Of a DNA stretch of 64,000 nucleotides, positions 2,652-36,933 are shown one piece after another. Position 1 is the first letter of the stretch, and each line of letters begins with the position of its first letter. Below the pieces are notes generated by a model that was given only the letters and a program-made list of their open reading frames with translations, made no database searches and was not told the DNA's origin. Source of the DNA: Pseudomonas alkylphenolica (GTDB lineage: Bacteria > Pseudomonadota > Gammaproteobacteria > Pseudomonadales > Pseudomonadaceae); assembly GCF_000746525.1 (NCBI RefSeq), contig NZ_CP009048.1, positions 4,343,501-4,407,500 of the forward strand, in the 5' to 3' direction. A program made the position numbers and the translations under genes.

Positions 2652-3352
2652 GCCAAGGCCTCCAGCGGGGTATCGTCGCCGCCCAGGTTGATGAAGGTGG
2701 CGCGATCCACGGCGACGAAGCGTACCCGGTCGCCCGGTTGCAACAGGCTGTAGCCGTCACGTTCGCGGTCAAAGAGTTTGCTCGGGGTACGGCCGATCAG
2801 GTTCCAGCCACCCGGCGAGACTGCCGGGTAGGCCGCAGTCTGGCGCTCGGCGATGCCGACGCTGCCTGCCGCCACGCGCTTGCGCGGGGTGGCCAGACGC
2901 GGCGCGGCCAGGGCCTCTTCAACCAGGCCCATGAAGGCAAAACCGGGGGCGAAGCCAAGGGCGAACACTTGATACTCGCGTTCACTGTGACGGCGAACGA
3001 TATCGGCCACCGAGGTAGCGCAACGCTCGGCCAGCAGGCTCAGTTCCGGACCGACACTCAGGTCGTACCACACCGGAATCTCGTGCTGGCGCCCGCCGCT
3101 GCCGTTATCCGGCTGCAGGTTTTCCAGCGCTTCGCGACTCAAGGTGCGGGCCTGCTCCGGCGACAGTTGCAGCAGGTCGAAATGCACCATCAGCGTGGTG
3201 TAAGACGGCACCAGGTCAACCAAATGCCCGGCGAACACCGCGCGCAAGCGCTGACTGGCCGCCAGCATCCAGGGCATATTGGCTTCATCAATGGCGTCGA
3301 ACAGACGCACCATCAGGCAGTCGATGGCCACCGTTTCAATGCGGTAACTCAT
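2648..3352 (-). CDS. pxpB: 5-oxoprolinase subunit B, KipI-like
   Basis: 234 residues of the PxpB/KipI (AHS1) family. Typical segments are [12 protein letters not shown] near residue 48, [13 protein letters not shown] near 130, and [16 protein letters not shown] near 180. It is the partner of PxpC in the ATP-dependent 5-oxoprolinase. Both ends overlap neighbours by 4 bp (pxpA upstream, pxpC downstream), so the three subunits are probably made in fixed ratio from one mRNA. KipI was first known as a sporulation-kinase inhibitor in Bacillus, but in this gene context the metabolic role is the better call. Confidence 0.94.
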
Positions 3353-4101
3353 GACGCCACCAGGGCATCAAGGGCCTGGCGAATCTGTTGCACCGCCGCC
3401 ACCGAGCTTTCGTTGTCGCCATGCACGCACAGGGTCTGAGCCTGCAGGCGCAGCTCGCTACCGTCCACGGCAATCAATGGCTCGCCACGGGCCAGACGCA
3501 GGGCCTGGTCGACGATCCGCGCCGGATCGTGATGCACCGCGCCCGGCAAACGCCGCGAGACCAGATGACCGGCGGCATCGTAGGCGCGGTCAGCAAAGGC
3601 TTCGAACCACAGGGTAACGCCGTACTCGTCACCCAGGGCCTGAGCCGCACTGTTGTCGGCCGTGGCCATGAGCATCAGCGGCAAGTGCCGGTCATAGCTG
3701 GCCAGCGCTTCAAGTACGGCGCGCAGTTTGAGCGGATCAGCCATCATGTCGTTGTACAGCGCGCCATGGGGTTTTACATAGGCAACCCGCGTGCCCTGGG
3801 TACGGCAGATGCCATCCAGCGCACCGATCTGGTAGTGCAGCAGGTCACGGATTTCCTCGGCGCTGCAGGCCATGGAGCGGCGGCCGAAGCCGGCCAGGTC
3901 CTGGTAGGCGGGGTGGGCACCGATGCGCACGTTACTGGCGATGGCCAGGGCCACCGTCTTGCGCATGATCCCCGGATCCCCGGCATGGAAACCGCAGGCG
4001 ATGTTGGCGCAATCCACAAAGGGCATGACCTGGGCGTCCAGGCCCATGGTCCAGCTGCCGAAACTCTCACCCATATCGCAATTCAGTAGCAGGCGGCTCA
4101 C
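3349..4101 (-). CDS. pxpA: 5-oxoprolinase subunit A, LamB/YcsF family
   Basis: 250 residues if translation starts at GTG 4101. That start has GAAGGAG eight bases upstream and yields [17 protein letters not shown], the normal N-terminus of the family. A longer in-frame ATG at 4152 would overlap the transporter gene and has no SD support. LamB/YcsF proteins have a TIM-barrel-like fold and carry the lactam-opening active site. Motifs are CGFHAGDP (about residue 39), [15 protein letters not shown] (about 65) and [11 protein letters not shown] (about 105). The gene lies 25 bp after the MFS transporter and overlaps pxpB by 4 bp. Confidence 0.94.
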
Positions 4102-4126
4102 GTCTGTCACTCCTTCAGGCTCGGCG

Positions 4127-5413
4127 TTATTGGGCTTCAAGTTCTTTGCCACGGGTTTCCGGCAGGCTCAGCGCCGCCAGGATTACCACCCCGTAGGACA
4201 CCGCTGCAAATGCGCCGATACCCAGGCCCAGCGGTATTTTCTGGCTGAGCATACCGATCAGCAGCGGGAAGAACGCCGCCAGCGCACGACCGATGTTGTA
4301 GCAGAAGCCCTGCCCCGAGCCACGGATGCGGGTAGGAAACAGTTCGGTGAGGAAAGCCCCCATGCCACTGAAGATACCCGAGGCGAAGAAGCCCAACGGG
4401 AAGCCCAGCCAGAGCATCACACCATCGCTGACCTGCATCTGGGTATACAGCAGGACGATGATGAACGAGCCCACGGCGAACAGGATGAAGTTCTTTTTGC
4501 GTCCCAAAAGGTCAGTGAGATAAGCGCTGATCACATAGCCGATGTACGAGCCGAAAATCACCATGGCCAGGTAGCCACCGGTGCCGAGCACGCTCAGGCC
4601 GCGCTCGTTCTTGAGGAAGGTCGGCAGCCACGAGGTGATTGCGTAGTAACCGCCCAGCGCACCGGTGGTCAGCAGCGAAGCACGGATAGTGGTGAAGAGC
4701 ATGCCGGGGGCAAAAATTTCATAGAAATGCGACGGTGCTTCGGTTTTCTCCGCCGCCTTGGCCTGGCGGTAGATTTCCGGGTCCTTGACCAGACGGCGGA
4801 CGAAGATCACGAATACCGCAGGCACGATTCCCAGCAGGAACAGCGCGCGCCAGGCGTCTTCAGGCGGCAGCAGGGTGAACAGCACGGCATAGAGAATCGC
4901 CGTCAGGCCCCAGCCAATGGCCCAGCCAGACTGCACCATGCCGACCGCCTTGCCGCGATCCTTGGCACGGATGACCTCGCCGATCAGCACCGCACCGGCG
5001 GTCCATTCGCCACCGAAACCGAAGCCCATCAGGGTACGGGCGATCAACAGCTGTTCATAGTTCTGGGCGAAGCCGCAGAGGAAGGTGAAAAAGGCGAACC
5101 ACAGCACCGTCAGTTGCAGGGTGCGGACCCGGCCAATACGATCGGAGAGGATGCCGGCGATCCAGCCGCCCAGCGCCGAGGCAATCAGGGTACTGGTGTG
5201 GATCAACCCGGCTTCGGCGGTGGTGATGCCCCACAGCATGATCAGGGTGGGGATGACGAAGCTGAGCATCTGGGTGTCCATGCCATCCAGGCCGTAGCCG
5301 ATCTTGCAGCTCCAGAAAGTCCGTCGTTCCTGTTTGTTGATGTTGCGGTACCAGTCGAAGGGACCGGCCACTGAACTGGATTTGGCCTGGTGCTGCACGC
5401 CCGATGGGTTCAT
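4127..5413 (-). CDS. MFS transporter, metabolite:H+ symporter type
   Basis: 428 residues from the ATG at 5413 (GAGG five bases upstream). The frame extends 17 codons further, without a good SD. It has twelve predicted membrane segments and the MFS signature GILSDRIGR in loop 2-3, with a similar TDLLGRKKN in loop 8-9, as in the aromatic acid/sialate symporter branch. It is the first gene of the pxp operon, so a likely cargo is 5-oxoproline or a related amino acid derivative; that is inference from position. A LysR regulator is read in the opposite direction from the same 143-bp gap. Confidence 0.85.
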
Positions 5414-25956: not shown

Positions 25957-27330
25957 TTAGCGCGTACCGCGCTGGCGCAATGCCGACGGCATGAAGTAGG
26001 CGTCCTCGGGCACTGGCTGGGCAAAGTCCACGGTCTGCGCTTCTTCGTTATCCAGGTTCTGCACGTAGTAACGACGCGCCTGCAAATCGTGGAACACGTC
26101 CAGCGAACTCCAGGTGGTTGGCAGGTCGTAGAAGTTCTTCAGGTAGCCCATCGACACCCGCCACAACTGCCCGCGCCCGTCGTACTGATCGACCAGCGCC
26201 GCACCCCAACTGTCTTCGTCGAGAAACAGCACGCGCTTGGAATAGATATGCCGCGCGCCTGTCTTGAGCGTGCCTTCCACCACCCACACCCGGTGCAGCT
26301 CATAACGGGTGTACTGCGGGTTGAGGTGCCCGGGCTTGAGCAAGTCGGCGTACTTCACCTCGGGGCTTGAGACCTTGTAGTTGTTGTAAGGAATGTAGAC
26401 CTCTTTCTTGCCCACCAGCTTCCAGTCATAGCGGTCCGGCGAGCCGTTGAACAGGTCGGTGTCGTCGGCCGTGCGCAAACCATCGGACGAGGCGATTGGC
26501 GTGTCGTACGCCAGGCTCGGCGCGCGTCGCACACGGCGTTGGCCGGCGTCGTAGATCCAGGCCTGACGCGGGTCCTTGATCTGGTCGAGGGTTTCGTGAA
26601 CCAGTGTCGCACCACCGGCCAGGCGAGCCGGGCTCTTCACGAAGGCCAGGTAGTAGAACAGGATGTTTTTCAGATCGGCATACTGCCCACCGGGGCGGTA
26701 GTAGTTGAACATCCCTTCCTGTTGCGCAGTCACCAGCGCGTAGCTGCCGTTGCGTTGCACCGGCGCTTCGGAAGCACGCCGCACCACATAGATGCCACGA
26801 TAACGGGTGATGTGGTTCCACACTGCCTCGACGCCATCCTTGGGAACGGGAAACGGCACGCCGCCATAGGCGTCGCTGAAACCGTTGCCGCCTTCAAGCA
26901 ACTTGGCCGAGGTGGCGTTCTTGAAGGTGTTGTCGTACAGCCACTGCGGTGCCGAGCCGGAACGGCGGCTGGGGTACACGGGCATCTGGAAGGTATCGGG
27001 GTAGCTGTTGAACAGCGCGATCTGGCCCGCACTCAACTGGTCCTTGTATTGCTCCAGATTGGCCTTGGTAATGGTGAACAACGGCTTGTCTGCCGCGTAC
27101 GGGTCCAGGTGATGCTGGCCAGGCTTGTAGCCCTGCGGCGCCTGGGTGATGCCGCCGTCCCAGGCCGGGATGGTCCCGGCAGCGTTGCCCGTGCGCTCGG
27201 CGCCCATGGGCGTCAGGGTGGCTTTCAGTTGCTCGGCCTGCTGAGGCGAAATGGCGGCCAGCGTCCCGCCGGCCGCCAGGCTCAGGACCAGCGCCAGGGT
27301 GGTCTTGAGCAGTCGTGGTGTGTGAAGCAT
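25957..27330 (-). CDS. DUF1329 domain-containing exported protein
   Basis: 457 residues from ATG 27330 (GGAG upstream). A signal peptide ends near residue 26 (GGTLAA). The mature protein has the DUF1329 pattern, including ERTGNAAGTIPAWDGGI near the start and VWVVEGTLKTGARHIYSKRVLFLDEDSW near the middle. It resembles LolA/LolB-like lipid carriers in the outer layer. DUF1329 genes commonly pair with DUF1302, as here (50 bp gap), next to esterases or efflux systems that handle hydrophobic compounds. The exact role is unproven. Confidence 0.85.
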   Translation of the reverse strand: MLHTPRLLKTTLALVLSLAAGGTLAAISPQQAEQLKATLTPMGAERTGNAAGTIPAWDGGITQAPQGYKPGQHHLDPYAADKPLFTITKANLEQYKDQLSAGQIALFNSYPDTFQMPVYPSRRSGSAPQWLYDNTFKNATSAKLLEGGNGFSDAYGGVPFPVPKDGVEAVWNHITRYRGIYVVRRASEAPVQRNGSYALVTAQQEGMFNYYRPGGQYADLKNILFYYLAFVKSPARLAGGATLVHETLDQIKDPRQAWIYDAGQRRVRRAPSLAYDTPIASSDGLRTADDTDLFNGSPDRYDWKLVGKKEVYIPYNNYKVSSPEVKYADLLKPGHLNPQYTRYELHRVWVVEGTLKTGARHIYSKRVLFLDEDSWGAALVDQYDGRGQLWRVSMGYLKNFYDLPTTWSSLDVFHDLQARRYYVQNLDNEEAQTVDFAQPVPEDAYFMPSALRQRGTR

Positions 27331-27380
27331 GGACGTTCTCCGAATTAAAAACCGGGCCGTAGGCCTTGGGGTCTGAGCAC

Positions 27381-29336
27381 TCACAGGAAGTACTTGAGGT
27401 TGAAGCCGACGTTGTCACGGTCGCGAATGCTGTTGTTCTGGCCACCACCGTAGAACTCGGTGTACTGCAACTCGGCTTCGAGCTTGTTCTGGTAGTTGGC
27501 TTTGATCCCCAGGGTGTAGGCCTTACGGCCCTCGATGGTGTTGCCTGCCTGGTAGCTGTTGCCCTCGAAGTCGTCCTTGTAGACGACATAGGGCGAGAGG
27601 TTGACCCCGGCGTAGACATCGTTCCAGGTCGCGTTGAGCATCGCCGTGTAGCTGTAGGAGTTGCGGTTGACCTGGTCGTCACGATCACCGCCGGATACAT
27701 AGGAGGTGTTGCCGCTACCGGCGTAGTAGCGAGTGCTGCCGTCAAAAGCGGTGTAGTGCAGGCTGCTGCCGCGCAGATGCTCGGAAGCCAGCTCGAACAC
27801 CCCGAACATCGAGTCGAACGACAGCCCCGGGCCGAAGTTGTAGATGGTGCCCAGTGAGGTATTGAAGGACTCCACCCGTTCAGCGTTGTTGATCTGGCTG
27901 TCGAGCTGGACCATTTGCCCGCCGATGTTGACAGTCTGGCCGGCAGCGGCGGCCGCAGCACCATTGGCCAGGTCGCCGATCAGGTCGTTGGTGGCGGCGA
28001 TGCCGATGGGCAAGTTGGGCCTGTAAGCCACTTCACCAAACACCGACGCCTGTCCCAGGGTGGTGTTGAAGCTGAAGCCGTACATGCGGATGTCTTCGGC
28101 GTAACGCCGATGCGCCTGGATATTGCCCATCACGTCGGCGGTAGCCAGACCACCGGCCAGCGCCGCGGCCTGACTGCCGGCAAGACCCGATAGCAGGTTG
28201 GTCAGGGCGTTCATGTCGATGCCTTGGTAGCCACCCAGATCGGCGGAGATGGTCGGCTCCTTGGCGTGATAATTGACCATGTACAGGCCGAACTCGGTGC
28301 TGTTGAGCTCTTCTGCGATGTAACGGAAAGCGAAGCCGAACTGCCCGTCGTTACGGGCGTTGAAGTCCTTGCCGATGGTCGCCACTTTCAGCGTATTGCC
28401 GAACGCCGGGGTCACGCCGTTGGCGTACAGGCCGGTGCTGCCCAGGACCTGTCTGAACAGCGGGTCGTTGCCCAGCCCTTCGTACAGACCGATGACATTG
28501 CCAAAACCGGGTACCGGGCTGTCCAGGGCGGTGCCGCTGAAATTGTTGTAGGCGGTGTTGCCGCCATCGGCGAACAGGTCGGTCTGGGAGTAGAAGGTGC
28601 CGACCGGGTCGATGCGGGTTTCCTTCCAGTTGGTCTGGTAGAAACTCTCCAGTGTCAGGCTGTCGGTCAGGCCGATGTTGAAGCTGACAGCCTCCACCGG
28701 CATCAGCACTTCCTTCACCTCAGCGCCCGGCAAGCGAAACCTGGCCGCATCCACCGGGTTGGTAGTGTTGATCCCGCCGCGATAGAACATACCCTCGCCC
28801 CAGTTGAACACCTGGCGCCCCAGGCGCGCAGTCAGCGGCATCTGCGCCACGTCCCAGCTGCCATAGACATAGGCGTCGAGCATCTCGATGTGGTGGCCGG
28901 CGATGTCGCGGGTCTGATCGGTGAAACGGTCGTCGTTGGGGAGGTTCTGGCTCGGTTGCGACGGGTTGTTGTTGTCGTAGTAATCGTTGCGCTTGTCCAT
29001 CAACTGGGTGTCGTAGAACGCGTTACCGCGCATGAACACCCCGTAGTTCTGGTAGTTGGCCTCCAGTTCCGAAGTGATCTTGTAGACCTCGGACGCCAGG
29101 CCGGTATCGAAGTTGCGATTACCGTCGTTGGTGTTGATATCATCGTTGCTCTTGTCCCGCCCCTGGACCCGCCACAAGCGACCGTAGGACAAGGTGGTGT
29201 CGAGCGAGCCGGTGACCTGATTGTCCAATACCTTGAACTCAACGGCCTGCGCGCCCTCGAGTGCGCACAATTGCAACAGCCCCGCCAACCCTACCCCGGA
29301 CATCACTGCGCCAGACTGGCGTAATCGATTCCCCAT
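27381..29336 (-). CDS. DUF1302 domain-containing outer-membrane protein
   Basis: 651 residues. A signal peptide (to about ALEGAQA, residue 32) precedes VEFKVLDNQVTGSLDTTLSYG, the typical DUF1302 start, and the chain ends in Phe-Leu after aromatic residues (GFNLKYFL), like a beta-barrel. The family is thought to form outer-membrane channels for hydrophobic substrates. It sits between the phospholipase-like gene and DUF1329. The ATG has GGGAG upstream. Confidence 0.88.
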   Translation of the reverse strand: MGNRLRQSGAVMSGVGLAGLLQLCALEGAQAVEFKVLDNQVTGSLDTTLSYGRLWRVQGRDKSNDDINTNDGNRNFDTGLASEVYKITSELEANYQNYGVFMRGNAFYDTQLMDKRNDYYDNNNPSQPSQNLPNDDRFTDQTRDIAGHHIEMLDAYVYGSWDVAQMPLTARLGRQVFNWGEGMFYRGGINTTNPVDAARFRLPGAEVKEVLMPVEAVSFNIGLTDSLTLESFYQTNWKETRIDPVGTFYSQTDLFADGGNTAYNNFSGTALDSPVPGFGNVIGLYEGLGNDPLFRQVLGSTGLYANGVTPAFGNTLKVATIGKDFNARNDGQFGFAFRYIAEELNSTEFGLYMVNYHAKEPTISADLGGYQGIDMNALTNLLSGLAGSQAAALAGGLATADVMGNIQAHRRYAEDIRMYGFSFNTTLGQASVFGEVAYRPNLPIGIAATNDLIGDLANGAAAAAAGQTVNIGGQMVQLDSQINNAERVESFNTSLGTIYNFGPGLSFDSMFGVFELASEHLRGSSLHYTAFDGSTRYYAGSGNTSYVSGGDRDDQVNRNSYSYTAMLNATWNDVYAGVNLSPYVVYKDDFEGNSYQAGNTIEGRKAYTLGIKANYQNKLEAELQYTEFYGGGQNNSIRDRDNVGFNLKYFL

Positions 29337-29386: not shown

Positions 29387-30703
29387 TTACCGCGCGAGGC
29401 TGACGCCCACTGATGGCGCCAGGCCCGCACGGGCATAGCTGCGGCTGTGCGCGCCAAAGTTGCCCAGCTGCTGGAACAACTGCTGGTTGAGCAACGGATG
29501 GTCGTAACGTTCACGCTGCACCTGGTTACCGGCACTGAAACTGCTGGTGGCCGGTGCCGTCGCCAGCCACTGGCCGATGGCCTCATCAAACGCAACACCT
29601 GCGGCGGCGGACTGGGCGCTGACCACGTCGCGCAGGTAGTCCACCGAATACGGCGGATAGCTGGCGTCTTGCGCGGTGTCGGCGTAGGCCTGGAGCATCG
29701 GATGCACCCGCTGCCCGTTGCGCAGCAGGCGAGAGAGCCAGGCGGCCTGATATTTCTCCACTTCCATGTGCCGGGTGGCGACCCGCTCGATGGCGGCATG
29801 CTTGTCGCCGTCATGCCCGGCCAAGGCCTTGCCTTCCATCAGCAACATGCTGAGCAGACCGACACCGGGCAGCGGTTTGGCGTGATACGGCTGGGTCAGG
29901 TCTTGAACGTGGTGCATGCCCCAGCCGAGAAAGCGGTAGCCCCAGTAGGGATGGCCGGTGGCGAAGGCCAGCCGCGCCAGCCCCAGGTACTGATAAGCCC
30001 GCCAGTGCGGCCAACTGCGTTCAAGAAACCCGGCTGTGGCATACACCACCGGGTTCTCATGGAAGAAGCCCATATGGAAGGGTGCCTGCGAGCTGTACTG
30101 GAAACGCTCATCGCCAAACGGCTGCGGACCAAAGCCGTAGAGCGCCGCCACTTCACCGGCATTGTCGCTGAACAGGTTGATGTCGTGACCGTAATCCGGC
30201 TCGTCGGCGGCGCTGGCCAACACCGCCAATGGCGTGGTTTTTTCGCCTTCGGCCAGGCGGATGAAACGCTGGCGGTTCCAGGGCGAAAGGGTCTGTTCGA
30301 CCATCACCTGCTCGGCCTTGAGGTGTTCACGCTGCGGCTGGTCTTGCCCCGGTAACGGCTGGATGACCATGGCCAGGTGGATCTGCGGATTGATCCGCAG
30401 AGCAGTGAGAAAGGTGTGGCGTAAATTGTCCCCTGGCACCGCGGGCAGCTTCAGGTTGTCGGGACGCGACGGATACTGGGCAAAGTGCTGACGGGCGAAG
30501 CGCTCCTGCTCGTCGAGCAGCGCGGCGATGGCGCCATATTGCTGAGCGAGAAACTGTTCCAGCGGCTCGACCTCAACCAGAGGTGCTTCGCGCAGCGCTG
30601 GCAGATCCTGCAACGCCAGGTAGCTGCCGACCGTATGGTTGGACCAGCCCCATGCCGCTGGAGCGATGCCACAGAGCAGCATCAGCAGAAGTTTCAGCTT
30701 CAT
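29387..30703 (-). CDS. Secreted zinc-dependent phospholipase C-like protein
   Basis: 438 residues. The signal peptide MKLKLLLMLLCGIAPAAWG would be cut just before WSNHTVGSY, leaving an N-terminal Trp that can ligate zinc, as in B. cereus phospholipase C and P1 nuclease. A second motif, GMHHVQDLTQPYHAKPLPG (about residue 250), has the HxxxD...PxH zinc pattern. Further His residues (HDINLFSD, HMGFFHEN) may complete the three-zinc site. It could release diacylglycerol or alkylacylglycerol from phospholipids. The substrate is inferred from fold and neighbours. Confidence 0.75.
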   Translation of the reverse strand: MKLKLLLMLLCGIAPAAWGWSNHTVGSYLALQDLPALREAPLVEVEPLEQFLAQQYGAIAALLDEQERFARQHFAQYPSRPDNLKLPAVPGDNLRHTFLTALRINPQIHLAMVIQPLPGQDQPQREHLKAEQVMVEQTLSPWNRQRFIRLAEGEKTTPLAVLASAADEPDYGHDINLFSDNAGEVAALYGFGPQPFGDERFQYSSQAPFHMGFFHENPVVYATAGFLERSWPHWRAYQYLGLARLAFATGHPYWGYRFLGWGMHHVQDLTQPYHAKPLPGVGLLSMLLMEGKALAGHDGDKHAAIERVATRHMEVEKYQAAWLSRLLRNGQRVHPMLQAYADTAQDASYPPYSVDYLRDVVSAQSAAAGVAFDEAIGQWLATAPATSSFSAGNQVQRERYDHPLLNQQLFQQLGNFGAHSRSYARAGLAPSVGVSLAR

Positions 30704-30813
30704 TGTTATTAGTTCTTATTGGATGTGCTTGAGGGCTGAGCCTAACAACCGGCCCTGCCCCTGACACTGTCCGATGTCGCCAAATACATTCTCCAATTGC
30801 GCCACGAACTCTC

Positions 30814-30885
30814 AGTGGGAGCGGGCTTGCCCCGCGATGCGGTGTGACTGGCAAATCGCAATCGCGGGGCAAGCCCGCTCCCACC
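30814..30885. repeat. REP inverted pair
   Basis: Two opposed REP units lie between the FGGY kinase and the phospholipase-like gene, inside a same-strand run of genes. They may separate two transcripts or set different mRNA levels. Confidence 0.92.
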
Positions 30886-30898
30886 GGTAGAGGGACTG

Positions 30899-32467
30899 CT
30901 AGGCTGGGTATCCTGTGATCTGCCGAATACTCTGGTACAGCGGTTTGAGCTGGCGGTACATGCGCAGGTAGACCTCCTTGTACAACCGCTCATAAACCTG
31001 CTGCGCCTCCGGCTGCGGCGTGAACACCGCACCCACCCGGGTCATCGCTGCAATCGCCGAGGGAAAGTCGGCATGCAGGCCAAGGCCCACCGCACAGCAA
31101 ATCGCCGCCCCCAGGCCCGACGCTTCATAGACATGCGGACGCTCGGCCGGCAGTCCGAAAATATCCGCCGTGAGCTGCATCGCGGCATCACTCTGCGACC
31201 CGCCACCGGCAACACGCAGACGTTCAATCGACTGTTTCGAGCGCTTTTCGAGCTTCTCTTTACCCTGGCGCAAGGCGTAGGCCAGCCCTTCAAGGATCGC
31301 CCGATAGATATGTGCGCGGGTATGCACGTCACCAAAGCCGATCATCGCGCCTTTGGCTTCCATGCCCGGCTCACGAATCCCCGGCGACCAGTAAGGTTGC
31401 AGCATCAGGCCCATGGAGCCGGGCGGCACCGCATTGACCAGGGCGTCGAACAGTTGCTCTGGCTCCAGCCCCTGCTCCTTGGCCTGCTGCATTTCGCGCA
31501 GGCCGAACTCGTTCTTGAACCAGCTGACCATCCAGTAGCCACGGTAGATCATCACTTCGCAGTTGTACTGATCCGGCACCGCCGCCGGATAAGGCGGAAT
31601 CAACGGGACAACTTCGAGATAGCGCGAACGCGTCATGGTGATGGTCGCGGTGGTGCCATAGGACAGGCACACCGTGGACGCATCGACCACGCCGGCGCCG
31701 AGTACTTCACAGGCCTTATCGGCACCCGCAGCGATCAGCGGCACGCCTTCGGGAATGCCGGTATGCCGGCTTGCCTCGGCGCTGATCTGGCCCAGGGTTT
31801 CGCCGGGTTTGAGCAGTGTCGGCAATTGTTCCGCGCGCACCGCCAGCGCCTGCCATTTCCAGTCGGCAGGTGCAGCCCAGCGCAGGCGTTTGAAGTCGAA
31901 CGGCAGATAGCCCACGCAGCAACCCACCGAGTCGACGAATCGCCCGCACAGGCGATGGGTGAGAAAACCCGAAAGCAGCAGGAACTTGTCGGTCGCCGCC
32001 CACACCTCGGGCTGCTGGTGGGCAATCCAGTTGGCTTCGGCCTGGGCACGGAAATAATCCACGGTGGCCTGCGCACCGACCAGTTTGAACAACCAGCCCC
32101 ACGGCCCCTTGATCCCGCCCTCGACCTCGGCCTGGCGTTGATCGAGCCACAGGATTGCCGGACGCAGGGCCTTGCCCTGGGCATCGACGTTGATCACGGT
32201 GCCGCGCTGGGTGGTCAGCGACACACCGGCGATTTGCGTACGATCAATGCCGGTCTGCTGCCACAACTGCTGGCAGGCTTCGCCCAGCTTGGCCCAGTAA
32301 TAATCCGGCTCCTGCTCGGCCCAGCCCGGTTGGGCCGAGGTGTAGGCCTGCAGCTCGATCTTGCCCTTGCCCAGCAGATTACCCTGCAGGTCGAACAGCA
32401 ACGCACGCACGCTCTGGGTGCCATTGTCGATTGCCAGCAGGTAGCGCTTGTTCTTGTTGTTATCCAT
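30899..32467 (-). CDS. FGGY-family carbohydrate kinase
   Basis: 522 residues from ATG 32467 (GAAGAGAG upstream); an ATG seven codons earlier overlaps the GlpD-like stop and lacks an SD. The N-terminal phosphate loop is [17 protein letters not shown], and the C-terminal ATP site includes [16 protein letters not shown]. The length fits glycerol, xylulose or ribulokinases, but the substrate is not fixed by sequence. Position after a GlpD-like gene argues for a glycerol derivative, possibly an alkyl- or acylglycerol. Confidence 0.88.
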
Positions 32468-32488
32468 GGAGCTCTCTTCAATGGGCAT

Positions 32489-34084
32489 TCAATGCGTGGC
32501 GTCCGGCAAACCATGGTGGCGTTGCCACAACGCCCGGTAACGCTGTTCTTCCGTCTGCCAGCGCAGATCGTCCCAGCCCAGCCGTGGCTGGCACAACTGG
32601 CGGATGCCCGGTAGATGTTCCTCCGCTCCGCGCTCCAGCAACAGGCCGATACGGGTGCGGCGCAACAGCAGGTCGTCGAGGTGCAGGACCAGTTCCGCTT
32701 CGCAGGCAAACGCCAGCTCCGCCCACAAGGTGTCGCTGGCACCGACGCTGGCGCAGCCCAACTGTTCCAGCAATAGCGCCAGGCGTGGCAGGTCGCGACC
32801 GTGACGCCCGGCCAGGCGACGCCACTGGCTGCTGTTGAGCCCCGAAATCGGCAACGCCGGTACCGCCGCAAACACCGGGGCGCCGTCATCGCTGACTTCG
32901 CGCCCGAGCATTGGCGCACAGGCCTTGAGCACTTCGAGCGCCTGAGGCCGGAACGTGGTCAGCTTGCCGCCGGCCAGGGTCACGCAGCCGGGCTCGAGCC
33001 ACAGCACATGCTCACGGGTTTCATTGGACGGCTTGCCTTGTTGCCCTGCGCTTGCACTGCCCACCACCGGGCGCACCCCCGACCAGGTCGACAATACATC
33101 GCCAGCAACCACGTTAGCCTGAGGAAACTGCTGGGCACAGGCAGCCAGCAGGTAGTCGAGTTCCTCGCTGCTGATGCTCGCGCTCTGGTCCAGATCTTCC
33201 TGATGGTCAAGGTCCGTGGTGCCCACCACCGTGGTGCCTTCCCAAGGGAAGACAAACACCGGCCGGCGATCGCGGGCGTGCAAAAAAGTGATCGCTTGAG
33301 CAACGGGTAAACGCCAGCCGGGCAGTACCAGATGACTGCCGCGCAACGGCCGTAATTGCCGGGGCGCGTCGCTCGGACGCAGGCGTTCGGCCCAGGCGCC
33401 GGTCGCCACCGCCAGCGCCCGGCAACGCAGCTGCAACAGCTCGCCATCTTCAGTGTTCTCAACCTGCACGCCGCAGACCCGGTCGTTTTCACGCAGCAAT
33501 TGCCGGACTCGCACACCATTGAGCGCCAGCGCGCCGTCCGCCCGCGCCTCAGCCAGCACACGCATCACCAGGCGTGCATCATCGGTCAGTGCATCGACGA
33601 AGCAGGTGCCCCCCAGCAACTGGTCTTCCTTCAAACCCGGCGCCAGGTAGTGCAGTTGTTGCGCGTCATAAAAGCGATGGCTGCGCCGCCCGGCCAGGGC
33701 GTCGTACACCGTCAACAGCCCACCCAGCACCCGCGGCCCGGGAAACTCGCCACGGTAGTGCGGCATCATGAAACTTGCAGACTCCACCAGCCCCGGCGCT
33801 TCGTCGAGCAGGCGCTGGCGTTCGTGCACCGAGTCGCGGGTCAGGCGCCACTGGCCCTTGGCGATGTAGCGCAAGCCGCCATGGACCATCTTCGAAGAAC
33901 GGCTGGAGGTGCCCCAGGCAAAATCGCGCTGCTCCAGCAACAGGCAGCGCCAGCCACGGCGGGCCGCTTCGCGCAGGATCCCGGCACCGCTAATGCCGCC
34001 ACCGATGACGATCAGGTCCCAGGTTTCATCCGCCAGGGTCGGCAGCACCTGCTGTCGCCACGCAGCATTCCAGTCCTGGCTCAT
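32489..34084 (-). CDS. FAD-dependent glycerol-3-phosphate dehydrogenase-like oxidoreductase
   Basis: 531 residues. N-terminal dinucleotide fold: DLIVIGGGISGAGILREAARR. GlpD-family motifs include SSRSSKMVHGGLRYI, TTVVGTTDLDHQED and LAGGKLTTFRPQALEV. It probably oxidises a glycerol-3-phosphate (or an O-alkylated form) to the DHAP form at the membrane. It is not the main glpD by context, because glpF/glpR are absent. It is 4 bp after the AGPS-like gene and 21 bp before the kinase. Confidence 0.88.
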   Translation of the reverse strand: MSQDWNAAWRQQVLPTLADETWDLIVIGGGISGAGILREAARRGWRCLLLEQRDFAWGTSSRSSKMVHGGLRYIAKGQWRLTRDSVHERQRLLDEAPGLVESASFMMPHYRGEFPGPRVLGGLLTVYDALAGRRSHRFYDAQQLHYLAPGLKEDQLLGGTCFVDALTDDARLVMRVLAEARADGALALNGVRVRQLLRENDRVCGVQVENTEDGELLQLRCRALAVATGAWAERLRPSDAPRQLRPLRGSHLVLPGWRLPVAQAITFLHARDRRPVFVFPWEGTTVVGTTDLDHQEDLDQSASISSEELDYLLAACAQQFPQANVVAGDVLSTWSGVRPVVGSASAGQQGKPSNETREHVLWLEPGCVTLAGGKLTTFRPQALEVLKACAPMLGREVSDDGAPVFAAVPALPISGLNSSQWRRLAGRHGRDLPRLALLLEQLGCASVGASDTLWAELAFACEAELVLHLDDLLLRRTRIGLLLERGAEEHLPGIRQLCQPRLGWDDLRWQTEEQRYRALWQRHHGLPDATH

Positions 34085-34088
34085 GCCG

Positions 34089-35684
34089 TCACTCCTGCAA
34101 CAGGGTGCCGGGGTTCAGACGCCCGGCCGGGTCAAAATGTCGGCTCAGTGCCTGCAAGGTGTCCAGCGCCCGCACGCCCTTCTCGCGCAACAGATAGGGA
34201 GCATGATCCTTGCCGACGCCATGCTGGTGACTGACCGTGCCGTGGTTGTCAACGATGGTCTGGCTGGCCGCATGCTTGAGCGCCTGCCAGCGCGCCAGGG
34301 TGGCCGGATACGTCGCCGCCGGGCGGAACACATAGGTGGTGTAGATGCTCGACCCTTCGCCATAGACATGCGACAAGTGGGTAAACACATGCACCCGCTC
34401 GCCCTCAGCCGCCAGGCCGTCGCGCAGGCTGCTTTCGATGCGATTGAGGAGGTTGTCGACATTGCTCCAGTCGGTGGCGGTTTCCAGGGTGTCGACCACG
34501 TAACCGGCGTTCCACAGATTCTCGCGCAGGTAGGGAAAACGGAAGCGGTTCTGCGCCCACTTGTTGCCCAGCAGCGTGCCGGTGAACACCCCGCCAAACG
34601 CCTTCAGGTGTTGCCGGGCCTGCTTCAGCGACAACGCGTTCTGCCGCCGGTTGCCGGTCACGCCGAAGGTCAACATGCATTTCCCGGCACGCGCACCGCG
34701 CAAGACCAGGTATTTTTCCAGCCAGGCGATCTGCTGCGGGTGCCCGGCCAGGGCCAGTTGAGTTTCAGTTTCCAGCGCATTCGACAGGCGCAGCATCGAC
34801 AGCGGCACACGTGCCTGGGCCAACTGGCGGATGGCTTGCAGGGCCAGGTTCCAGTCGGGCAGAAACACCCCGTAGAAACGTTCGTCCGCTGGCAGCGGAG
34901 TGATCCGCACCTTGACCTCGGAAATGATCCCGAAGCGCCCTTCGCTGCCCAGCACCACTTCGCGCAGATCAGGGCCTGCGGCCGAGGCCGGGAAGGTTGC
35001 GATTTCCAACGGGCCGGCGAAGGTTTCCAGCGTACCGCCGGCGAACAGCTGCTCTATGCGCCCGTAGCGTAGCGACTGCTGGCCACTGGAACGACTGGCA
35101 ACCCAGCCGCCCAGAGTCGACAGCTCCCAAGACTGCGGGAAATGCCCCAGGGTATAACCGCGGGCACGCAACTGGCTTTCCACTTGCGGCCCGGTGGCGC
35201 CAGGGCCGAAGGTGGCCAGCAGGCTCTGCTCGTCGAGATCGAGCAGGCGGTTCATGTGCGCCAGCGACACGGTCAGCACCGGCCGCGTGGAAGATGGCGG
35301 GTTGATGTGTCCGGCCACCGAGGTGCCGCCACCGTAAGGAATCAGGCACAGGTCTTTATCGTGGGCGAGCGCCAGCAACTGACGAATATGCTCGACACTC
35401 TGCGGGAACGCCACCCCATCGGGGTAGGTCCCCAGCGAGCCTTCACGTAACGCCAGCCAGTCCGGCAAACTCTGGCCACGCGCATGCAGCAGACGATCAT
35501 GGGCCTCCAGGCTGTACAGCGGATGCGCCGCCAGACGCGAGGCCGGCACCCGCGCCAGTGCCGCCTCCAGCGTGGCGTCGGGCAACGCAGCCCCAGCGCC
35601 TACCCGGGCAGCGAGAAACCCCGCGCCCTGGGCCGGCAGCTCGACCACCGTGGTTGCATCCCCCCAGCCGTTCCAGCGTCGCAT
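34089..35684 (-). CDS. FAD-binding oxidase, alkyl-DHAP synthase-like
   Basis: 531 residues of the VAO/PCMH flavoprotein family. LCLIPYGGGTSVAGHI is the FAD phosphate-binding loop. The stretch GYTLGHFPQSWELSTLGGWV with ASRSSGQQSLRYGRIEQL mirrors alkylglycerone-phosphate synthase (AGPS), and HVYGEGSSIYTTYVF plus VSHQHGVGK match its C-terminal active site. AGPS has HHHGVGK; here the middle His is Gln. A standard VAO oxidase with another substrate remains possible. AAGGAC precedes the ATG. Confidence 0.85.
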   Translation of the reverse strand: MRRWNGWGDATTVVELPAQGAGFLAARVGAGAALPDATLEAALARVPASRLAAHPLYSLEAHDRLLHARGQSLPDWLALREGSLGTYPDGVAFPQSVEHIRQLLALAHDKDLCLIPYGGGTSVAGHINPPSSTRPVLTVSLAHMNRLLDLDEQSLLATFGPGATGPQVESQLRARGYTLGHFPQSWELSTLGGWVASRSSGQQSLRYGRIEQLFAGGTLETFAGPLEIATFPASAAGPDLREVVLGSEGRFGIISEVKVRITPLPADERFYGVFLPDWNLALQAIRQLAQARVPLSMLRLSNALETETQLALAGHPQQIAWLEKYLVLRGARAGKCMLTFGVTGNRRQNALSLKQARQHLKAFGGVFTGTLLGNKWAQNRFRFPYLRENLWNAGYVVDTLETATDWSNVDNLLNRIESSLRDGLAAEGERVHVFTHLSHVYGEGSSIYTTYVFRPAATYPATLARWQALKHAASQTIVDNHGTVSHQHGVGKDHAPYLLREKGVRALDTLQALSRHFDPAGRLNPGTLLQE

Positions 35685-35730: not shown

Positions 35731-35758
35731 ATAGTAGCCAGCCACCCGAGCCTGTCAC
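35731..35758 (-). promoter_or_regulatory. Candidate sigma-70 promoter of the AGPS-like operon
   Basis: On the minus strand GTGACA (35758-35753) and TACTAT (35736-35731) are separated by 16 bp, and the -10 ends 47 bp before the ATG. The -35 matches 5/6 and the -10 4/6 consensus positions. The AraC gene starts divergently 138 bp away, so its operator is expected in this 211-bp gap. Confidence 0.45.
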
Positions 35759-35895
35759 GGTCACATCCGGCCAGCTCGAGTAGCCGATTGAGCCAACCCG
35801 CACGCGGCTGCCGCCATTTACTTTAGCGGTGGTTTCAAATTACCTTTCAGGGTCTTCATCTGCGCCTGTCTGCTTCGATCAAAAGGAACCCGATC

Positions 35896-36933
35896 ATGCA
35901 ATCCCTCGGCTACAGCTCGGTTCCCCCGCTGCTCAAGTACGTGCGTCATGCCGAACAACTGGGCATGGCCATTGAACCGGCGCTTGCGGTAGCCGGGTTG
36001 CAAGCCCAACAGCTGAGCGACAACAGCCTGCGCGTGCCAGGCGAAGCCCATGAACGCTTGCTCGATTACTTTTGCGAGCATTCCGGCGATCCGCTGTTCG
36101 GCCTCAACTCGGCGCGATTCGTGTTGCCCAACTCCTGGAACGTGCTGGGCTACATCACCATGAACTGCGCAACCCTGGGCGATGCCATGAATCGCATCAT
36201 GCCGTTCGAGAAGCTGGTGGGCGACATGGGCGTCAGCCGCGCCGAAACGCAGGGTGAGCACGTGCACCTGATCTGGACCTGCCGCCACCAACGCCCGCGC
36301 ATTCGCCGCCACCTGGTGGAAAACGTCCTGGGCTCCTGGCTGCAATATGCGCGCTGGATCGCCGACGCCCAGCTGTCGCCCGCCGCCGTGTGGCTCGAAC
36401 ACCCCCTGCCGGCGGACACCGAACGCGCGCAATATGAACAGTTCTTCGACTGCCCGGTGCTGTTCGACCAGCCTTACTCGGCACTCGTTGTTCCGCTGCC
36501 GTACCTGCAACTGCCCTTGCGCCAGGCCGATGCGCAGTTGCTGCGCACCCTGGAAGACCACGCCCTGGGCTTGATGGCCACACTGGAAGACGCGTCGCTG
36601 GAGCAACGGGTGAAGAACATCCTGCGCCAGCTGCTCAAGGAAGGCCTGCCGCGCAAGGAGCAGGTGGCCGAACAGTTCGCCGTCTCGGTGCGCACCCTGC
36701 AACGCCAGTTGCACCAGGCCAACACCTCCTACCAGCAAATCCTCGATGACCTGCGCCAGGAACTGGCGGAGCACTACCTGCTGCACAGCACCTTGCCGAT
36801 CCAGGATATCGCTCAGTACCTGGGCTTCACCGAACCGCGTTCATTCCACCGCACCTTCAAAAGCCGACGCGGGATACCACCGGGCGAATTTCGCCAGACT
36901 TACCGGGAGTCGCCGAACCCATCGAACGCTTGA
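35896..36933 (+). CDS. AraC-family regulator, OruR/ArgR-like arabinose-binding-type N-domain
   Basis: 345 residues. Residues about 20-205 form the AraC_binding_2-type sensor domain (PPLLKYVRHAEQLGM..., PGEAHERLLDYFCEHSGDPLFGL). The C-terminal two-helix-turn-helix unit includes QVAEQFAVSVRTLQRQLHQ and DIAQYLGFTEPRSFHRTFK. It diverges from the AGPS-like/GlpD-like/kinase operon across a 211-bp gap. By position it is the activator of that operon. Confidence 0.9.
   Translation: MQSLGYSSVPPLLKYVRHAEQLGMAIEPALAVAGLQAQQLSDNSLRVPGEAHERLLDYFCEHSGDPLFGLNSARFVLPNSWNVLGYITMNCATLGDAMNRIMPFEKLVGDMGVSRAETQGEHVHLIWTCRHQRPRIRRHLVENVLGSWLQYARWIADAQLSPAAVWLEHPLPADTERAQYEQFFDCPVLFDQPYSALVVPLPYLQLPLRQADAQLLRTLEDHALGLMATLEDASLEQRVKNILRQLLKEGLPRKEQVAEQFAVSVRTLQRQLHQANTSYQQILDDLRQELAEHYLLHSTLPIQDIAQYLGFTEPRSFHRTFKSRRGIPPGEFRQTYRESPNPSNA

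Follow-up and report, generated by a model that had tools for sequence, protein, structure and literature searches.

A GliR-type gene cluster of Pseudomonas alkylphenolica with a possible role in the breakdown of ether-linked glycerolipids

Why would a pseudomonad encode a relative of alkylglycerone-phosphate synthase (AGPS) side by side with a GlpD-like dehydrogenase and an FGGY kinase? These three genes, here called the trio, lie in a stretch of 64,000 nucleotides (the window) of Pseudomonas alkylphenolica NZ_CP009048.1, a one-contig genome of 5.76 Mb whose nearest relatives are Pseudomonas. We lean slightly towards the answer that they belong to a catabolic regulon for glycerophospholipids, activated by the AraC-type regulator GliR, with a special part that handles ether-linked lipids. 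Transcription on the minus strand runs from the AGPS-like flavoprotein through the dehydrogenase, the kinase, a phospholipase C and a DUF1302 protein to a DUF1329 protein, and the regulator gene is divergent:

34089..35684, minus strand: AGPS-like flavoprotein that binds flavin adenine dinucleotide (FAD), proposed to cleave the ether of alkyl-dihydroxyacetone phosphate (alkyl-DHAP); FAD_binding_4 and FAD-oxidase_C domains, nearest solved structures AGPS
32489..34084, minus strand: GlpD-like FAD dehydrogenase, proposed to convert 1-alkyl-glycerol-3-phosphate to alkyl-DHAP; DAO and DAO_C domains
30899..32488 (likely start Met-8, 32467), minus strand: FGGY kinase, proposed alkylglycerol kinase; 26% identity to the genome's GlpK
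29387..30703, minus strand: secreted phospholipase C, orthologue of PA3464 (PlcA); metal motif, 64% identity to the gene of P. aeruginosa PA7
27381..29336, minus strand: DUF1302 protein (505.7 bits), possibly for lipid uptake at the outer membrane
25957..27384, minus strand: DUF1329 protein (539.1 bits), partner of the DUF1302 protein
35896..36933, plus strand: GliR, AraC-type activator, divergent from the trio; 594.2 bits with NCBIfam NF050186, above its cut-off of 570
35756..35795, minus strand: proposed GliR box before the AGPS-like gene, with a pair of TGGCnnnAT half-sites 22 bp apart, from the promoter alignment
30765..30804, minus strand: proposed GliR box before the phospholipase C gene, from the promoter alignment

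Domain searches confirmed the identities, coordinates and order that an initial annotation had given to the trio; its spacings of 4 bp (flavoprotein to dehydrogenase) and 21 bp (dehydrogenase to kinase) are correct, the latter provided that the kinase starts at Met-8. That annotation did not mention the GliR regulon, overlooked the significance of the adjacent phospholipase and DUF1302/DUF1329 genes and knew of no firm description of such a breakdown pathway in Pseudomonas. By its sequence, the cluster is the regulon of GliR (PA3027) of P. aeruginosa, already named in 2021 and drawn as a synthetic pathway (PMC8151288). According to that report, GliR binds and activates PA3026-PA3024, binds the promoters of PA3026 and PA3464 as well as a site upstream of PA3342, and when in excess raises the PA3026-PA3023 and PA3464 transcripts more than 40-fold (PMC8151288). 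PA3464 is described there as PlcA, a phospholipase C acting on phosphatidylcholine, phosphatidylserine and phosphatidylethanolamine; the trio, present in few reference genomes, is drawn as leading from glycerol to alkylglycerone phosphate, with its function left open (PMC8151288). All 11 published primers that we tried match loci of strain PA7 with 0-2 mismatches, which identifies these loci (L083 and L120) as the orthologues of PA3027-PA3024 and PA3464. The PA7 gene to which the window phospholipase is 64% identical is the one matched by the PA3464 primers, and it lies about 480 kb away from the PA7 trio. The window thus shares regulator, trio and phospholipase with P. aeruginosa, but here the phospholipase adjoins the trio and is followed by DUF1302/DUF1329, and a scan of ten proteins at the locus found no lipid kinase of the PA3023 type. 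PA3023 is YegS-like by description, and its PA7 counterpart carries DAGK_cat and YegS_C domains.

A link between the trio and phospholipid degradation is visible in the promoters. Alignment of 81 promoters of the AGPS-like gene and 45 of the linked phospholipase revealed a common tandem repeat, TGGCnnnATnGG-N10-TGGCnnnATnnGACnGTG, which forms a 40-bp box. The two promoter regions of the window are identical at 28 of 44 positions, whereas 60 dinucleotide-resampled pairs reached at most 25. Since the two window sites served to derive the pattern, they necessarily match it perfectly, and it was written with knowledge of the relatives' trio promoters; its independent tests are the remaining genome sequence and the promoters of unlinked phospholipases. 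At up to three mismatches, the box occurs at two sites in the whole genome, before the AGPS-like and the phospholipase C gene (reversed control, none), and none of 100 shuffles of the window reached two sites. Among 24 other genomes, all 29 sites with up to two mismatches precede an AGPS-like or a phospholipase gene, unlinked phospholipases included (24 assigned by tblastn, 5 through coordinates). PA7 has exactly two sites, preceding PA3464 and PA3026, and four genomes without an AGPS-like match have 0, 0, 1 and 0. In the 80 best loci described below, where about 300 bp around script-called starts were searched, the box stands near every AGPS-like start (80/80) and every linked phospholipase start (48/48), and no further site was seen. 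By extrapolation from P. aeruginosa, GliR would bind this box at the window locus. The shortest published PA3026 promoter fragment, made with primer 14, was activated about 2-fold, compared with almost 12-fold for the next longer one (PMC8151288). In the PA7 sequence this fragment begins 2 bp within the box, and its weak activation suits an activator that needs two half-sites. Used alone, the published motif A proved unspecific (71 places in the window at up to two mismatches, 29 expected), as did motif B (11 places at one mismatch, 5.5 expected). Both mark the AGPS promoter of the window at no better than three mismatches, and one half-site of the phospholipase box fits motif A with a single mismatch. 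Between the kinase and phospholipase genes (30812-30885) lies a long inverted repeat that by eye resembles the repetitive extragenic palindromic elements of Pseudomonas and may split two transcripts.

The phospholipase itself begins with a segment that looks like a signal peptide by eye, followed by WSNHT (W20), and carries the metal motif H264-x3-D268-x2-QP-x-H274. We take an N-terminal Trp together with HxxxDxxQPxH to be the signature of zinc-dependent phospholipase C. Relatives of the protein bear the NCBI name 'phospholipase'; the window protein gave no sequence match in Pfam, NCBIfam or the PDB, and its predicted structure is poor (mean pLDDT, the predicted local distance difference test, 48.2). 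Genes for DUF1302 and DUF1329 proteins stand behind the phospholipase in 48 of the 80 best Pseudomonas loci. In P. putida, PP_0765 and PP_0766, members of these two families, are reported as essential on Tween 20 and have been proposed as components of a transport system (PMC10866462). By analogy, the window pair may import a lipid product.

The kinase and the dehydrogenase recall the glycerol catabolism of GlpK and GlpD, in which a kinase is likewise followed by an FAD dehydrogenase. The canonical GlpD and GlpK are encoded together elsewhere in this genome, in one 4.1-kb stretch, and the window dehydrogenase is only 35% identical to that GlpD; both window proteins fall below the NCBIfam cut-offs. 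The dehydrogenase reaches 271.7 bits against an equivalog cut-off of 360 (NF008899). The residues aligned with Y55, H233, R317, R332 and K354 of E. coli GlpD, presumably its active-site residues, are nevertheless kept in 95 of 95 sequences, and a substrate resembling glycerol-3-phosphate is therefore likely. The kinase scores 152.9 bits with one GlpK model and 149.8 (cut-off 590.35) with another, and higher, 261.3 bits, with a xylulokinase model. Assuming catalytic or glycerol-contact roles for R83, E84, W103, Q104, D245 and Q246 of E. coli GlpK, we find the R83 position kept in 92 of 93 kinases (one gap) and W103 and D245 in all 93, whereas E84 is replaced by Gly in 85, Q104 by Leu in 91 and Q246 by Lys in all 93. 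These changed contact positions suit a substrate that lacks a free C1 hydroxyl. The stereochemistry would fit as well: phospholipase C acting on a 1-alkyl-2-acyl lipid should free sn-3 for an enzyme similar to glycerol kinase. The P. aeruginosa operon mutant is reported to retain growth on glycerol (PMC8151288).

The flavoprotein is nearest to AGPS by sequence and by predicted structure, and the match, with the VAO-type FAD fold, spans the whole chain; a family's absence from the fold-search tables does not exclude it. R299, R387 and Y448 align with R419, R515 and Y578 of guinea-pig AGPS; among 98 sequences, R299 and Y448 are invariant and R387 is conserved in 97. The corresponding Dictyostelium residues R352, R447 and Y508 were found by mutagenesis to be important for catalysis (PMC3509576). 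The HQH motif, which that annotation had singled out for checking, sits at the site of mammalian His615-His616-His617: H486-Q487-H488, a His-Gln-His present in 95 of 98 sequences, the three exceptions being distant relatives without the trio. As it lacks His-His-His, we call the protein AGPS-like rather than AGPS. It resembles eukaryotic AGPS/ADPS in fold along the whole chain, including the N-terminal segment and the FAD domain, and in Arg/Arg/Tyr, but differs in His-Gln-His and in the genes beside its own, for a kinase and a dehydrogenase of the GlpD type. The Gln position is Glu in the nearest paralogue of the genome (L002, labelled GlcD-type) and His in all eight relatives compared from the plasmid collection. 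In a 24-row tree, the His-Gln-His enzymes form one clade (support 99/100). A division into catabolic His-Gln-His and synthetic His-His-His enzymes was ruled out, as actinobacterial enzymes linked to GlpD-like genes have His-His-His; the motif thus marks a clade and is no functional test. The AGPS mechanism is described as passing through a covalent flavin-DHAP iminium once the first group has left (PMC3509576). We propose that cleavage of alkyl-DHAP by water would follow this cycle with the leaving group and the nucleophile swapped.

The trio is conserved as a unit. Our search returned at least 566 relatives, and the best 80 loci, all titled Pseudomonas, were kept. GliR, trio, phospholipase, DUF1302 and DUF1329 occur together in 48 of them and GliR with the trio in 24; six have the trio without an adjoining GliR, and all six genomes hold a GliR of 74-76% identity elsewhere. 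The remaining two, at a contig end, are without the kinase. Wherever all three genes occur together, in 92 of 92 loci from six families, their order and strand are the same. In one of these, from Pseudomonas sp. TH31 (L052, 13549-15350), the kinase frame is split into two open reading frames, a broken gene or an assembly error. Among 398 genomes drawn from the phylum, 19 match the AGPS-like protein at E <= 1e-40, 16 of them (the window's own included) at 53% identity or more and three at 34-36%. The trio is present in all 14 genomes fetched of the 15 others in the closer group and missing at the three distant matches. It is patchy, occurring in 5 of 11 genomes listed as of the same genus, the window's own genome included. 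Of the 80 best loci, 17 (L083 and 16 others among L023-L102) carry a gene for a YegS-type lipid kinase close to the trio and 48 carry the phospholipase gene; no locus has both and 15 have neither, an exclusion that may simply reflect a split between groups of Pseudomonas. Fourteen neighbours at six distant gammaproteobacterial loci included no partner that recurs, for instance an alcohol dehydrogenase. Neighbours that would fit lipid use were seen at single loci, namely a PhoD-like phosphatase (L107) and a transporter of the BCCT (betaine/carnitine/choline) family (L104); at a third (L108), an alpha/beta hydrolase and a GMC oxidoreductase lie near the trio.

Related clusters exist in actinobacteria. 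The plasmid collection gave 43 records with a relative, eight of which were fetched. Three of these relatives, from Streptomyces fungicidicus, Tsukamurella and Nonomuraea, are 39-41% identical, and in all three a GlpD-like gene is transcribed divergently from the AGPS-like gene, with a gene for a YegS-type lipid kinase immediately following in two. The clusters of S. fungicidicus and Tsukamurella match the window in combining AGPS-like protein, GlpD-like protein and kinase, and differ in having a YegS-family lipid kinase in place of the FGGY enzyme, a TetR regulator and His-His-His. A lipid kinase in this place argues for a glycerolipid substrate, and a pathway that starts from free glycerol and ends in alkyl-DHAP would have no use for it.

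We propose the following pathway. The secreted phospholipase C would take off the headgroup and lipases encoded outside the cluster the sn-2 acyl chain, with the DUF1302/DUF1329 proteins possibly assisting uptake. The FGGY kinase would phosphorylate 1-O-alkylglycerol at sn-3, and the GlpD-like enzyme would oxidize C2 to give 1-O-alkyl-DHAP. The AGPS-like flavoprotein would then run AGPS chemistry in reverse: C1 loses a proton, flavin N5 attacks and the fatty alcohol leaves, after which water (or a fatty acid) would attack the flavin-bound DHAP iminium to yield DHAP (or acyl-DHAP). Substrate, direction and hydrolysis are what we infer from the genes and their setting. Such a bacterial cleavage of alkyl ethers without oxygen, in which a kinase and a dehydrogenase precede a His-Gln-His enzyme of the AGPS family and water replaces the fatty alcohol on flavin-held DHAP, is put forward tentatively, at somewhat less than an even chance. 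In literature searches of an open-access collection, which lacks most subscription journals, we found no description of bacterial alkylglycerol breakdown by enzymes of this kind.

Breakdown has more in its favour than the published scheme of synthesis, above all the box shared with the phospholipase, the actinobacterial lipid kinase and the redundancy that a glycerol substrate would imply for kinase and dehydrogenase beside the separate glpK and glpD genes. The initial annotation had already argued for breakdown; its direction is backed by these observations, while its alkylglycerol substrate and ether cleavage are proposals here too. The synthesis scheme of Kotecka et al. (2021; PMC8151288) leads from glycerol through glycerol-3-phosphate, DHAP and, by an acyltransferase encoded elsewhere, acyl-DHAP to alkyl-DHAP and ether lipids. 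AGPS fold and catalytic residues agree with it, and it has the standing of a published proposal, yet we judge it unlikely, as glpK and glpD already cover its kinase and GlpD steps, the regulatory box is shared with a degradative secreted phospholipase C, and it does not accommodate the lipid kinase of the actinobacterial clusters. As the initial annotation had noted for the acyltransferase, neither an acyl-DHAP acyltransferase nor a fatty-acyl reductase turned up in the scan of ten proteins at the locus. GlpD-type enzymes oxidize, and ether-lipid synthesis beyond AGPS requires a reductase. The fatty-acyl-reductase-type family PF07993 has six hits in the genome, the strongest of which (L134, C1:160179-160889) looks by eye like the C-terminal reductase part of a protein resembling a non-ribosomal peptide synthetase. 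Ether lipids are also not known to have been reported in Pseudomonas membranes, which counts against synthesis.

Two further alternatives were considered. If monoacylglycerols were the substrate, in a salvage pathway, the kinase would yield lysophosphatidate and the dehydrogenase acyl-DHAP, whose acyl group the AGPS-like enzyme would hydrolyse or exchange. The logic of kinase and dehydrogenase is then unchanged, phospholipase C and lipases would release acylglycerols, and AGPS enzymes are reported to bind acyl-DHAP (PMC3509576); this alternative seems quite improbable, as ordinary lipases would cut esters without three dedicated enzymes, and an ether-chemistry flavoenzyme would be superfluous. 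The enzymes might otherwise act on a soluble glycerol ether or a glycoside, or the flavoprotein might catalyse an oxidase or dehydrogenase reaction instead of AGPS chemistry, which we also consider unlikely. His-Gln-His in 95 of 98 sequences and the preference of the window kinase for the xylulokinase over the GlpK models would fit this, as would a plasmid of Shinella sp. HZN7 (L144, 6914-9863), where an AGPS-like gene (31-34% identity, His-His-His) adjoins an FGGY kinase of the xylulokinase type within a cluster for sugar ABC transporters and an alcohol dehydrogenase, perhaps the same logic applied to a soluble ether or a polyol. The box shared with the phospholipase in Pseudomonas, the actinobacterial lipid kinase, the conserved AGPS Arg/Arg/Tyr and the invariant GlpD active-site residues all speak against this alternative.

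Several observations weigh against ether-lipid breakdown by the GliR regulon. The AGPS homologues of known reaction all make ethers, to our knowledge, and His-Gln-His could mean a different chemistry. The Shinella context indicates that pairs of AGPS-like enzyme and kinase need not all act on lipids, and no GlpD-like gene adjoins any of the five plasmid relatives of about 28-34% identity, that of Shinella among them. The phospholipase was not found in 15 of 25 trio genomes chosen for lacking it beside the trio. It is reported to act on ordinary phosphatidylcholine, phosphatidylserine and phosphatidylethanolamine, which makes the link to ether lipids indirect. The box is missing, at up to three mismatches, before the phospholipase in 4 of 10 scanned genomes having that gene, and sites with three mismatches are partly noise: with these included, the 24 genomes contain 41 sites against 7 for the reversed control, and the twelve at exactly three mismatches comprise 3 before the two genes, 5 elsewhere and 4 unchecked. 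Of the six PF07993 hits, the examination covered the strongest one. From P. aeruginosa, the published account adds that deletions were without phenotype on glycerol, citrate and nine BIOLOG plates and that GliR increased PA3464p only slightly in E. coli (PMC8151288). PA3342 (DUF2804), a third GliR target, has no place in our scheme. A DUF2804 protein of the PA3342 type gave no match in the window genome, but neither did it in 14 control genomes, so that its absence is not demonstrated.

If the proposal holds, it adds a second chemistry for the cleavage of ether lipids. Alkylglycerol monooxygenase (AGMO) achieves the same end, cleavage of the 1-O-alkyl ether, as a tetrahydrobiopterin-dependent, membrane-bound enzyme (PMC7911779, PMC9192799), whereas the cleavage proposed for the window needs no oxygen. 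A family known for ether synthesis would gain a catabolic branch, with the AGPS reaction running in the degradative direction, in Gammaproteobacteria and, with a lipid kinase replacing the FGGY enzyme, in Actinomycetota. Such an oxygen-free, flavin-based route would explain how bacteria can recycle the ether lipids of animals, protists and other microbes, and it would give a function to the regulon left open in 2021.

Other relatives of the AGPS-like protein stand in varied surroundings. On the small plasmid p4 of Moraxella osloensis (L146, 5776-11254), the gene lies with those for a gamma carbonic anhydrase, an acyl-CoA synthetase and an AraC regulator, flanked by Tn3-family transposase genes, and similar matches occur on other Moraxella and Acinetobacter plasmids. 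On a plasmid of Rhodococcus pseudokoreensis (L147, 4785-12804), it is near two genes labelled 'sterol desaturase family', the superfamily to which AGMO presumably belongs. The 5.8-kb record MT838028.1 ('Bacteriophage sp.') has an AGPS-like frame of 30.6% identity at 3155-4552 and is probably bacterial DNA. Two P. aeruginosa studies touch on the trio, but we draw nothing from them: PA3026 was less abundant on n-octadecane in a proteomic study (PMC5491041), and work on cis-2-decenoic acid names PA3025 (PMC4412052).

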